NCBI GenBank assembly: GCA_947259215.1 | Contig: CAMYLJ010000002.1 | Location: forward strand, 67,524 to 131,523 | From: an uncultured delta proteobacterium | GTDB lineage: Bacteria > Myxococcota_A > UBA9160 > JAFDET01 | Length of the DNA stretch: 64,000 nt | Direction of reading: 5' to 3' | In this document: positions 31,511-35,333 of the stretch, piece after piece | Numbering within the stretch: position 1 is the stretch's first letter | How the letters are laid out: every line of letters begins with the position of its first letter | Translations under genes and position numbers: made by a program | Notes under the pieces: model-generated | Told to the model about the DNA's origin: nothing | The model's input: only the letters and a program-made list of their open reading frames with translations | Databases searched by the model: none

Positions 31511-31586
31511 GCTCCCATCGTCTAGCGGTCTAGGACGGGGCCCTCTCAAGGCTCAAACACGGGTTCGAGTCCCGTTGGGAGCACCA
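31511..31586 (+). tRNA. tRNA-Glu (anticodon CTC)
   Basis: Acceptor GCTCCCA/TGGGAGC, D-arm TCGTCTAGCGG, anticodon loop CTCTCAA with anticodon CTC, T-arm ACGGG-TTCGAGT-CCCGT. The 3' CCA is encoded (31584-31586). It reads GAG. Confidence 0.95.
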
Positions 31587-31751: not shown

Positions 31752-32336
31752 GTGAGTGCGTTCGTCTTCGCCTTCATGGACATGGAGTTCGGGGGACTCG
31801 ACCCGGAGCTGCACGACATCACCGAGATCGCGGTGATCCTGACGGACTACCGCCTGGCGGAGTTCGCGTCGCGGGAGTGGAAGGTCCGGGCGCGGCCGGA
31901 GCGCATCACGCCCCAGGCCGCCGAGATGTCCGGCTACTCGGACGAGGCCTGGAAGGACGCGATCCCGGTGCGCCAGGCGCTGACCGAGGTGGCGGAGATG
32001 CTGCCCGCCGGCAAGGTGTCGGTCCCGGCCGGTCAGAACGTGCGCATGGACGTGATGTTCCTGGAGCGCGCCTACAAGAGCTGCGGGATCCCCTACCCCT
32101 TCGACTACCACGTGATCGACCTGGCGACGCTCTTCTACAGCTGGTCGCTCGTCTGCGGCGAGACGGTGCCGGCCCTCTCCCTGCGCCAGGCGGCCACCCA
32201 CGCCGGGCTGATCGAAGGGGTGGTGGAACACCGGGCCATGGCCGACGCGCGCCTCACGCTGGAGGCCTTCCGGCACTACGTGGGCCGGCTGGCCCCGCGA
32301 CCGCTGCCGGACGCGCCCGCCGCAGCCCGCGCCTGA
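31752..32336 (+). CDS. DEDDh-family 3'-5' exonuclease
   Basis: 194 aa from the GTG at 31752. Exo I motif FMDMEFGGLD (Asp-x-Glu), Exo II AGQNVRMDVMFL, Exo III EHRAMADARLTLEAF with His-x4-Asp: the DnaQ/RNase T type. It lacks a polymerase-binding or other extra domain, so it could act on RNA or DNA ends. Its last 19 codons are echoed 470 bases downstream (see 32741-32797). It stands alone between tRNA-Glu and a 16-base palindrome. Confidence 0.88.
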   Translation: MSAFVFAFMDMEFGGLDPELHDITEIAVILTDYRLAEFASREWKVRARPERITPQAAEMSGYSDEAWKDAIPVRQALTEVAEMLPAGKVSVPAGQNVRMDVMFLERAYKSCGIPYPFDYHVIDLATLFYSWSLVCGETVPALSLRQAATHAGLIEGVVEHRAMADARLTLEAFRHYVGRLAPRPLPDAPAAARA

Positions 32337-32344
32337 GGTCCGAG

Positions 32345-32360
32345 CCCCGGCCGGCCGGGG
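32345..32360 (+). terminator. Palindrome after the exonuclease gene
   Basis: CCCCGGCCGGCCGGGG is a perfect 16-base palindrome 8 bases past the exonuclease stop. No T-run is present. Confidence 0.4.
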
Positions 32361-32385
32361 GCCCCGGCGGCCCCGGTTTCGGCGG

Positions 32386-32415
32386 TTGACTCCGCTACCG
32401 CATCGGGTGTAGAGG
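32386..32415 (+). promoter_or_regulatory. Possible sigma-70 promoter before the sigma-like gene
   Basis: TTGACT (32386-32391) and TAGAGG (32410-32415) are 18 bases apart. The -35 is good, the -10 weak. It lies 37 bases before the TTG start at 32452, which has GGAGG 10 bases upstream. Confidence 0.4.
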
Positions 32416-32451
32416 TAGAGCCGTTGGGGGGGGCCTGGAGGCGCCGCCCGC

Positions 32452-32727
32452 TTGTCTGAGTCGGCCCGAGCCCCGGAATCCGATCTCGCCTTGGTCGGCA
32501 AGGTGCTGCGCGGCAGCCAGCCGCACTTCGACCTCCTGTTCCAGAGCTACTTCGACCGTGTCTACGCCGTTGCCCAGCGTCACCTGGGCGACGTGCGCGA
32601 GGCGGAGCGCGTGACCGAAGAGGTGTTCGCGGTGCTGCTGCGCGACCTCGCCGCCTTCGATGGGCGTATCAGCCTCGCGCAGTGGGTGCTCGGCATCCTG
32701 AAGAAGGAGCTCGGCGCGCGGCGCTGA
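32452..32727 (+). CDS. Region-2-only sigma-70-like protein
   Basis: 91 aa from a TTG. Residues about 12-85 match ECF sigma region 2: DLALVGKVLRGSQPHFDLLF, YFDRVYAVAQRHLGDVREAE, VTEEVFAVLLRDLAAFDG, ISLAQWVLGILKKELGARR. It is close to region 2 of the ECF factor at 34449-35024 (SREHFELLYRSYFPRVYRFA). The protein stops right after region 2; region 4, which reads the -35 element, is absent. It may be a truncated paralogue or a regulator that binds core polymerase alone. Confidence 0.7.
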   Translation: MSESARAPESDLALVGKVLRGSQPHFDLLFQSYFDRVYAVAQRHLGDVREAERVTEEVFAVLLRDLAAFDGRISLAQWVLGILKKELGARR

Positions 32728-32740
32728 GAGCGGCTCCGGT

Positions 32741-32797
32741 CTTCCGGCGTTACGTCGGGCGGCTCGCCCCGCCCCCGCCGCCGGACGCGCCCGCCGC
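32741..32797 (+). repeat. Diverged copy of the exonuclease 3' coding end
   Basis: This 57-base stretch aligns without gaps to 32267-32323 inside the exonuclease gene, with 49 of 57 bases identical. Read in the matching frame it gives FRRYVGRLAPPPPPDAPAA against FRHYVGRLAPRPLPDAPAA; many differences fall on third codon positions. It now overlaps, antisense, the last codons of the kinase-like gene. Confidence 0.65.
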
Positions 32798-33367
32798 GGT
32801 CCTCGCCGCGGGCTCGAGCCTCACCCGCCACTTCTCCAGCGCGCGACGGTCGATCCACGCCAGCAGCGGCAGCAGCAGCCGCGCGGCGAGGCCGCCGGGC
32901 CGCAGGCAGACCGCGGAGCCGAAATCGATCAGTACCGGGCGACCCGACGCGTCCGCGAGCACGTTGCTCCGGTGGCGCAGGTCCAGGTGGGCCACGCCGC
33001 GGGCGTGCATGCCGTCGATGGCGCCGGCCAGGGCGTCCACGAATCCGGGCGGGACCTCGCCGGCCAGGCTGCGCCCCATGCGCCGGCCCGGCCGGTACTC
33101 GATCACCAGCGCCAGCTCGTCGATCCGCCCCAGCAGCCGCGGCACCGCCGGGTGCCCGCGAAGCGCCTGGTAGGCGCGCTCCTCGCGCCGCCCCAGCCAG
33201 GGCGCGAGCCAGCGGCGCACCCAGGGGCCGCGCGGCGCCCAGTCCTTCACGACCACCGGCCCGGACGGGCCCGGCACCAGCAACACGTCCGGGTTGCGGC
33301 GGTTGCCGCGGTTCAGGAGCTGGACGGTCTCGTGGCGGAGGCTGGCTCGCGTGACGCCGTGGCTCAC
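32750..33367 (-). CDS. Small kinase-like protein (LPS/RIO kinase fold)
   Basis: 205 aa. Catalytic loop HLDLRHRSNV (His-x-Asp-x4-Asn) and metal site VLIDFGSAV are intact; VVVKDWAPRG provides a Lys in the position of the ATP-binding Lys and EERAYQALRG the following helix Glu. The size and LIEYRPGRRM-like hinge resemble the lipopolysaccharide core kinase/RIO group (Kdo kinase-like) rather than Ser/Thr kinases. The Gly-rich C-terminus (GASGGGGGASRPT) is encoded antisense to the duplicated exonuclease tail, so this end was probably created by that duplication. Substrate unknown. Confidence 0.8.
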   Translation of the reverse strand: MSHGVTRASLRHETVQLLNRGNRRNPDVLLVPGPSGPVVVKDWAPRGPWVRRWLAPWLGRREERAYQALRGHPAVPRLLGRIDELALVIEYRPGRRMGRSLAGEVPPGFVDALAGAIDGMHARGVAHLDLRHRSNVLADASGRPVLIDFGSAVCLRPGGLAARLLLPLLAWIDRRALEKWRVRLEPAARTAAGASGGGGGASRPT

Positions 33368-33447: not shown

Positions 33448-33687
33448 CTAGCCGCTCCCCCCGTCGCTGCCGCCGAAGCGCTCGCGCACGATGGTCCAGA
33501 GCTTCCGCCGCAGCCGCTCGCGGAAGAGCGGATCGGCGTCCACCTCGACGTCGTCGGCGTCCAGGAAATCGCGGAGCTCGTCCGCGGAGATGTCGTCCGG
33601 AAGACTGTTGAACACGTCGTTCGCTTGCTCCTGATGCCAGCGCTCCGGCCCGCCGTCCCCCCCCTGGGTCGGGCGCGTCCGCCTCAC
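33448..33687 (-). CDS. Small acidic protein coupled to an ECF sigma gene
   Basis: 79 aa from a GTG at 33687 overlapping the sigma gene stop (GTGA). The N-terminus is Gly/Arg-rich and the core is DVFNSLPDDISADELRDFLD followed by ADPLFRERLRRKLWTIVRER. There is no TM helix and no zinc anti-sigma His-Cys motif. Translational coupling suggests a partner of the sigma factor, for example an anti-sigma or regulator, but the sequence itself gives no known family. Confidence 0.65.
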   Translation of the reverse strand: MRRTRPTQGGDGGPERWHQEQANDVFNSLPDDISADELRDFLDADDVEVDADPLFRERLRRKLWTIVRERFGGSDGGSG

Positions 33688-34280
33688 GCCGGGCTCCAAT
33701 CCGGTCCGCTCTTGTCGCTGTCCCGCTGCGCCTCGATGGCGTCCACCAACAACCGCTTCACGCGGTAGAGGCTCGAGCGGATCGCGTCGGCGGTGCGACC
33801 GGTGCGCTTTGCGATCTCCCGGATCGAGAGGTTGTCCTCGTGCCGGAAGCGGAAGACGTCCACCTGCCAATCCGACACGGACGCCAGCTGCTCCTGGATG
33901 ACACCCACGTAGCGGCGTAACACGAGCTGTTCGTCGGGAGCGCAGGAGCCGATCGAGGGCGCCGGCTGGAGGCTCTCCGCATCGACGGCGCCGAGGCGCT
34001 CGCTCTCGGCACGCATCCGGCGCAGGTGGTTGTTGATGGTGTTGCGGGCCACACCGAATATCCAGGTCAATAACTGGGACTCACCTCGGAATGCGCCCGC
34101 GGACCGGAAGACCGCAGCGAAGGTCTCCTGCACCACCTCCTCGGCGTCCGCCCGGTTGCGGATGCGGACCACCGTGAAGTTGTAGATGCGCTGGAAGTAA
34201 CGCGCATAGAGCTCGTTGAAACAAGCCTCTTCGGTGTTGCGGATGCCTTCTACCAGCTCCGCGTCCGTGAGGCTCGACAT
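33684..34280 (-). CDS. ECF-type RNA polymerase sigma factor (1)
   Basis: 198 aa from the ATG at 34280 (MSSLTDAELVEGIRNTEEAC). Region 2: ELYARYFQRIYNFTVVRIRN, ADAEEVVQETFAAVFRSAGA and WIFGVARNTINNHLRRMRAE. Region 4: DVFRFRHEDNLSIREIAKRT and TADAIRSSLYRVKRLLVDAI. Regions 1 and 3 are absent, as expected for group 4. No clear ribosome-binding site precedes 34280, so the start is uncertain; it is nevertheless the first credible ATG before region 2. It lies downstream of a second ECF gene, separated by a palindrome. Confidence 0.9.
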   Translation of the reverse strand: MSSLTDAELVEGIRNTEEACFNELYARYFQRIYNFTVVRIRNRADAEEVVQETFAAVFRSAGAFRGESQLLTWIFGVARNTINNHLRRMRAESERLGAVDAESLQPAPSIGSCAPDEQLVLRRYVGVIQEQLASVSDWQVDVFRFRHEDNLSIREIAKRTGRTADAIRSSLYRVKRLLVDAIEAQRDSDKSGPDWSPA

Positions 34281-34429
34281 CGGACGCACAGCGTCGTCCG
34301 AGGTTGCGGGGACCGTACGGGGCAACGCGGTTACTCCAGCGTTGTCCCCCTCCCAGGAAACGGGCTCCCTAGCCCTCACGCACTGAAGTGGAGCCGGGCA
34401 GCTCCACGTGGCAGGAAATCTCACTTGCG

Positions 34430-34448: not shown

Positions 34449-35024
34449 TCAGAGCAGGCTTTCGAGCTCCGGCGCCGCGTTCCGGAGGGCCCGGCGCATC
34501 CGATAGAGGTTGGCCTTGACCGCGTCTTCGGACTTGCCCAGGGCCACGGCGATCGAGCGGATCGGCTGCCGGCGCAGGTGCTTCAGGTGGAAGATCCGGC
34601 GCTGGAGAGGCGTGAGCTCGCGCTCGATGACCGACTCGCAACGGGAGAGCATGCGGCGGGCGTCCGCAGCCCGGTCCGCGGGTGCCGTGGCCTCGCACGC
34701 CACGTCCCCGGCCGCTCCGTCGAGCGATTCCATCCGCGGGCGCTTGCGACGGAAGCGCCGGTTCACCGTGTTCCGCGTGATCCCGAAGATCCAGACCAGC
34801 AGCGCCGAATTGCCCTGGAAGCTCGAAAGCGCCCGGAAGACCGTGATGAAGACTTCCTGGCTGACGTCCTCCGCCTCCCCCGGGTCGCCGAGCCGCTTCA
34901 ACGCGAAGCGGTAGACGCGCGGGAAATAGCTTCGGTAGAGCAGTTCGAAGTGCTCGCGGCTACCGCCGAGGATGGCCTCGACCAGCTCGCGATCATCGGA
35001 CCAGGCTTCGGTGCCCTGCGCCAT
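34449..35024 (-). CDS. ECF-type RNA polymerase sigma factor (2)
   Basis: 191 aa from the ATG at 35024, 4 bases after GGAGG. Region 2: SREHFELLYRSYFPRVYRFA, PGEAEDVSQEVFITVFRALS, ALLVWIFGITRNTVNRRFRR. Region 4: QRRIFHLKHLRRQPIRSIAV and SEDAVKANLYRMRRALRNAA. It is transcribed from the sigma-54-type promoter at 35188-35202, so it would be an intermediate in a sigma-54 to ECF cascade. No anti-sigma gene with a recognisable motif adjoins it. Confidence 0.92.
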   Translation of the reverse strand: MAQGTEAWSDDRELVEAILGGSREHFELLYRSYFPRVYRFALKRLGDPGEAEDVSQEVFITVFRALSSFQGNSALLVWIFGITRNTVNRRFRRKRPRMESLDGAAGDVACEATAPADRAADARRMLSRCESVIERELTPLQRRIFHLKHLRRQPIRSIAVALGKSEDAVKANLYRMRRALRNAAPELESLL

Positions 35025-35187
35025 TCGACCTCCAGGCGCACTTCGGGCTCCAGGGAACGGGGGTTGCGGCACAGCGTGCCGCGCAGCGGACCTCGGATGG
35101 AATCTCTTGTGGGGATCCGGGGGGCTGGTTCTCCTCGCTCGTCCAGGGCTCTCAGAAGTGGGGACGCATGTCCCGGCGCTGTTGAGA

Positions 35188-35202
35188 GCAAGCTGCATGC
35201 CA
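35188..35202 (-). promoter_or_regulatory. Sigma-54 promoter before the ECF sigma gene
   Basis: Minus strand TGGCATGCAGCTTGC fits TGGCAyG-N4-TTGC exactly in spacing, with one common variant base. The start would be near 35177, about 150 bases before the ATG. The surrounding 35181-35333 is markedly richer in A/T than the rest of the window, as expected of an enhancer/activator-binding region. Confidence 0.75.
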
Positions 35203-35333
35203 CAAATCAGAAATCCGCAACAAGCAAGGCAACCTTTTGAGCGCAAACGGGGTGTTTGCCCTCGGGCCTACCCCCAAGTCACCCTGCGTTTGGCGCTGGT
35301 GGGTAAATTCTTTCCGTTAATGAGGAGAGGCGG

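Follow-up and report, generated by a model that had tools for sequence, protein, structure and literature searches.

Loss of a stop codon as the source of convergent gene overlaps, and the turnover of such overlaps, are well established (PMC2174442, PMC2478687, PMC4161906, PMC3843671). Fifty-four possibly true convergent overlaps longer than 60 bp have been recorded, most of them kept only in very close species (PMC2478687); the published work treats the creation of overlaps, not their loss (PMC4161906), and a survey of Salmonella and E. coli counted overlapping pairs that had become separated (PMC3843671). The word "duplication" is absent from the texts of PMC2174442, PMC2478687, and PMC4161906, and no "duplicat-" word occurs in PMC3843671. 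Decompression, in which overlapping genes are placed side by side, has been discussed as an engineered change in phiX174 (PMC11527146), and a search limited to open-licence papers found no described precedent for a natural counterpart. How overlaps vanish has been little studied, and the locus described here, in a 64,000-nt stretch of DNA (hereafter the window), keeps a physical trace of one such loss, with both frames legible in both copies. We propose, with a probability of roughly 0.85, that an overlapping exonuclease-kinase gene pair was separated at this locus by duplication of an ancestral 61-nt antisense overlap, with a sigma factor fragment lying between the two copies. The order includes dozens of relatives, overlapping and non-overlapping, so that overlap turnover can be tested in it.

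The exonuclease gene (31752..32336, + strand) encodes a 194-aa protein with an RNase_T/DEDD 3'-5' exonuclease domain (Pfam PF00929, E=8.8e-15), which also showed NCBIfam DEDD exonuclease matches below cut-off. The gene is single copy, with one match in its own genome; a second exonuclease sought in that genome and a close second copy sought in the relatives were not found. On the opposite strand, the kinase-like gene (32750..33367, - strand) encodes 205 aa with the motifs HLDLRHRSN and DFG, and its matches to Pfam Pkinase (E=3.2e-5) and NCBIfam PRK12274 (E=8.9e-15) are below cut-off; the protein ends in GASGGGGGASRPT, followed by the stop. A tRNA-Glu (ctc) gene (31511-31586, +) lies immediately upstream of the exonuclease; before it come two ORFs of the opposite strand that resemble type IV pilins. 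Adjoining the kinase gene is a pair of complete ECF sigma genes (33684-34424 and 34449-35246, both on the - strand), one or both of which stand beside the exonuclease-kinase pair in many relatives of the order. Between the kinase and sigma genes, a small ORF (33448-33699, -) has no Pfam or NCBIfam match and is kept in most relatives. Promoter and terminator scans detected nothing.

The exonuclease end is repeated in the window. The initial annotation had reported 57 bases that match at 49 positions without gaps, and this count was reproduced exactly (32267-32323 against 32741-32797). This core is contained in a longer direct repeat (32264-32353 and 32738-32827, spacing 474 nt), in which 70/90 positions (78%) are identical and 20/90 differ. 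Copy 1 (32264..32353) covers the exonuclease end from 'AFRHY' to 17 nt past the stop, and copy 2 (32738..32827) carries the kinase C-terminus on the - strand. We infer that the 61 nt of copy 1 between a relic kinase stop (32276-32278) and the exonuclease stop (32276..32336) correspond to the ancestral exonuclease/kinase overlap. The copies are also alike upstream of the kinase stop (10/12, P ~2e-4) and downstream of the exonuclease stop (12/17, P ~7e-4), as expected if the duplicated segment held both gene ends. Thus, the duplicated piece would have exceeded the overlap by only a little, which is the least that keeps both genes whole.

We addressed the history of this gene pair using exonuclease loci fetched from Myxococcota-type MAGs that belong to the same order. 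The nearest relative, G001 (JANQFA010000091.1), is a Myxococcota MAG, and a scan of genome contigs revealed none closer. The exonuclease and kinase genes were adjacent in 49 relatives and convergent in 49/49, with identities to the window of 63-82% for the exonuclease and 46-63% for the kinase. The coding sequences shared 37-118 nt in 20/49 relatives. The kinase stop lay opposite the same exonuclease Tyr codon in 18 of the 20, which came from seven families, the other three members of the window's family among them; the overlap interval was 82-88 nt in G001-G003. Eight further relatives showed a 4-nt overlap of the two stops, and the remainder overlapped by <=15 nt or were spaced. Both genes are kept beyond the overlap in the relatives, the arrangement of an ancestral convergent overlapping pair. 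In relatives without the long overlap, the kinase generally ended shortly after the KWR.RL motif, which indicates that the Gly/Ser/Ala-rich tail is dispensable across relatives; the C-terminal extension of the kinase appears to be a dispensable read-through tail and not an acquired domain. More generally, a C-terminal tail rich in Gly and Ser may, in a GC-rich genome, be no more than antisense read-through of the gene next to it.

When the overlap label was placed on the exonuclease tree, ~10 changes were required, at least five of them forced by well-supported branches, and the label was clustered on the tree relative to shuffles. In this order, the overlap has come and gone repeatedly. The combination of a wide gap and a second exonuclease end occurred in the window only, where the second end matched at 50/60 positions; in 14 relatives, the best chance match reached 29-37/60. 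Other pairs with wide spacing (G034, 940 nt; G009, 124 nt) had no duplicate exonuclease end; the 940-nt spacing at the G034 locus (L102) represents a different way of separation. In ten relatives of families f8 and f5 (L006, L017, L020, and L108-L114), the exonuclease was kept and the fetched flank contained no kinase match; in two of these (L017 and L020), the sigma genes and the small ORF were still nearby.

The recurrence of the same antisense stop may be explained by the reading phase. Exonuclease codon positions 1, 2, and 3 face kinase positions 2, 1, and 3, a relation that PMC2174442 denotes as phase (123:213). The kinase stop is formed by the last base of one exonuclease codon together with bases 1 and 2 of the codon that follows. 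A His-Tyr or Tyr-Tyr pair (CAY/TAY-TAY) thus always gives TAG or TAA antisense in the kinase frame. The code and the alignment together suggest that the exonuclease motif FR[HY]Y[VI]GRL imposes the antisense stop, so that a kinase losing its own stop in this frame would halt there. The code predicts that Phe in place of the exonuclease Tyr removes the antisense stop, and in L027 and other loci with FRHF or YRHF that stop is missing and no kinase terminates there. The same phase bears on the substitutions in the repeat. The statement that many differences fall at third codon positions was half true, since the differences at exonuclease positions 1/2/3 number 3, 9, and 8; the constraint in the sense frame that had been read from them does not follow, because each third position of the exonuclease is paired with one of the kinase and an excess there cannot tell which strand was constrained.

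Relics of the overlap were found in both copies. In the kinase frame, copy 1 still reads RPGLGPQARAAAGASGSGRGASRPT up to a stop, and over a longer stretch GLGPQARAAAGASGSGRGASRPT up to the stop; the exonuclease has no need of the part of this stretch that lies beyond its own stop. This frame resembles the G001 tail (LGPQ..GASGSGRGASRPT in copy 1, LDPQ..GASGSGRGARRPT in G001, each followed by a stop), and the kinase Pro-Gln codons that face the exonuclease TGA in G001 face it in copy 1 too. Copy 2, on the + strand and in the exonuclease frame, still reads VFRRYVGRLAPPPPPDAPAAV. The locus shows features expected of a decompressed overlap: two copies of the overlap that serve one gene each, with a relic of the other frame and an extension past both stops in each. 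The initial annotation had proposed that the exonuclease end was duplicated and then reused antisense for the kinase C-terminus. The order of events was the reverse, since the kinase of 18 relatives already ends at the same exonuclease Tyr codon and copy 1 retains a relic kinase tail; the antisense use thus predates the duplication.

The timing of the duplication can be bounded from shared changes. From the RL[DE]P motif (RLGP; in the relic of copy 1, GLGP) to the kinase stop, both copies have 19 codons, compared with 26 in G001 and 28 in G002 and G003, so that the tail in both copies is 21 nt shorter than that of G001. Two third-position states are also common to both copies and absent from G001-G003. 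These results indicated that the duplication is younger than the split from the closest genus sampled. In the core, third-position identity was 12/17 between copies 1 and 2 and likewise 12/17 between copy 1 and G001, and identity between the window and G001 over the whole exonuclease was 0.70; identity between the copies is thus about at the level of window and G001, and the duplication was not recent. Compared with G001 over a 51-nt core, copy 1 carries five differences, all at third positions, which leave the exonuclease protein unchanged, and copy 2 carries 0/3/6 at exonuclease positions 1/2/3 (kinase positions 2/1/3). Two of the three second-position changes in copy 2 also alter the kinase (R to G and S to G), which indicates weak kinase constraint on the tail. 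The substitutions would fit copy 1 serving the exonuclease and copy 2 the kinase, as a pattern of only 14 changes, too few for a test.

Between the copies lies an insert of 384 nt (32354..32737, +) that is missing from the other 49 exonuclease-kinase loci and is known from one genome, a draft MAG-like assembly in 128 contigs and the sole sampled member of its genus. It contains a GGAGG (32437-32441) 10 nt before the TTG start of a truncated ECF sigma factor (32452..32727, +; 91 aa; PF04542, E=8.4e-7). This fragment is the 5' part of a gene and has region 2 only, not the Sigma70 region 2 plus region 4 of a full ECF factor. It is unique in its own genome and in the order. Its nearest relatives are the genome's own sigma gene at 34449-35246 (42%, - strand) and the orthologues of that gene (44-48%), and the tree placed it weakly, on a long branch, in the group of that gene. 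No intact orthologue was found at E<=1e-20 in 80 genomes of the order, save a 48% match in G053 that the tree placed with the neighbouring-sigma group. At the DNA level, the insert matched the neighbouring sigma gene weakly, with a score of 86 (shuffle maximum, 54), and by sequence comparison it appears to be related to that gene and not a recent copy of it. The fragment's G+C by codon position is 0.76/0.41/0.89 and its frame is uninterrupted, which oppose a long-neutral pseudogene and indicate that it served as coding sequence during much of its past; this suggests derivation from a diverged, once-functional paralogue. A transposon target-site duplication was also rejected, as the insert holds no transposase-type ORF and the duplication, at ~90 nt, is neither short nor perfect; none of the listed inverted repeats delimits the insert.

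Taken together, these data are consistent with an ancestral state in which the exonuclease and kinase genes converged and shared the DNA of their ends. The kinase would have lost its own stop and read the antisense of the exonuclease up to a stop dictated by the exonuclease protein. In the lineage of the window, a segment of ~90 nt, just larger than the overlap, would then have been duplicated, with the copies coming to be separated by 384 nt that carry the 5' part of an ECF sigma gene. The preferred route is a single step, with filler capture or template switching during break repair copying the overlap. Each gene would thereby have gained a private ending, and each copy would have been freed from one of two coding constraints. 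The most serious competitor, which we consider unlikely, is a tandem duplication that yielded a whole second exonuclease, followed by a deletion joining a sigma gene to its last ~90 nt; copy 2 would then be what is left of a full gene. Such a history would account for the abrupt start of copy 2 within coding sequence, ~10 nt after the sigma fragment stop, and a kinase relic after copy 1 would likewise result if the duplication extended 17 nt into the kinase. However, the genome has no second exonuclease and its relatives no close second copy, a sigma gene on the + strand would still be needed whereas those of the cluster lie on the - strand, and more steps are required. The initial annotation had invoked a local duplication/deletion, close to this history, that also cut off the sigma gene; the exonuclease end is truly duplicated and the sigma gene is cut at the boundary of copy 2, but the direction it gave was wrong.

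That direction, with the exonuclease end duplicated first and the kinase gaining its Gly-rich C-terminus by antisense reading of the copy, agrees with copy 2 encoding the kinase C-terminus on the opposite strand; it is very improbable, being refuted by the 18 relatives that encode the same tail antisense to their only exonuclease of this type and by the relic tail past the exonuclease stop in copy 1, unless all 18 overlaps arose independently of that in the window. We would give just as little credence to an assembly artefact misjoining contigs of two strains. The fragmented assembly and the lack of a second genome of the genus for comparison leave room for it, but the copies share derived states despite their 20 differences, and a simple join of two normal loci cannot yield an arrangement around a sigma fragment that neither the genome nor the order holds elsewhere. 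Least credible of all is chance similarity from GC-rich Pro/Ala codons lying opposite Gly/Ala codons. The repeat region is ~73% G+C, and an exonuclease tail rich in Pro/Ala will naturally yield one rich in Gly/Ala on the antisense strand; nevertheless, the next-best ungapped match to the 57-mer in the whole 64 kb, on both strands, is 36/57, codon-block shuffles never exceeded a local score of 17 (observed, 40.5), and homology extends beyond both stops, which practically rules convergence out. An ancient kinase tail combined with such convergence had been named in advance as grounds for abandoning the duplication; the tail did prove to be old, but the similarity is not convergent.

Separation of an ancestral overlap by duplication therefore remains our reading, and we consider it probable that it exemplifies a natural decompression, in which duplication of a shared segment is a further route, besides a stop-codon move or gene loss, by which antisense overlaps dissolve, within an order where overlaps turn over around an antisense stop fixed by the exonuclease. 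As in convergent overlaps created by stop loss (PMC2174442, PMC2478687, PMC4161906), the kinase of the relatives runs antisense into the exonuclease to an in-frame stop, in phase (123:213); in contrast to most of the long overlaps of PMC2478687, that at this locus recurs at the same antisense stop in seven families, and the overlap of the window was undone by duplication and not by a new stop. The nearest analogue is the decompression of phiX174 (PMC11527146), in which shared coding sequence was likewise copied for each gene and the relic frame can be read in the other copy; here, however, the event is natural and bacterial and concerns one antisense tail overlap, not a synthetic refactored genome. 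Like the separated pairs of Salmonella and E. coli (PMC3843671), the window has lost an ancestral overlap in one lineage, but here the physical route of the separation is visible.
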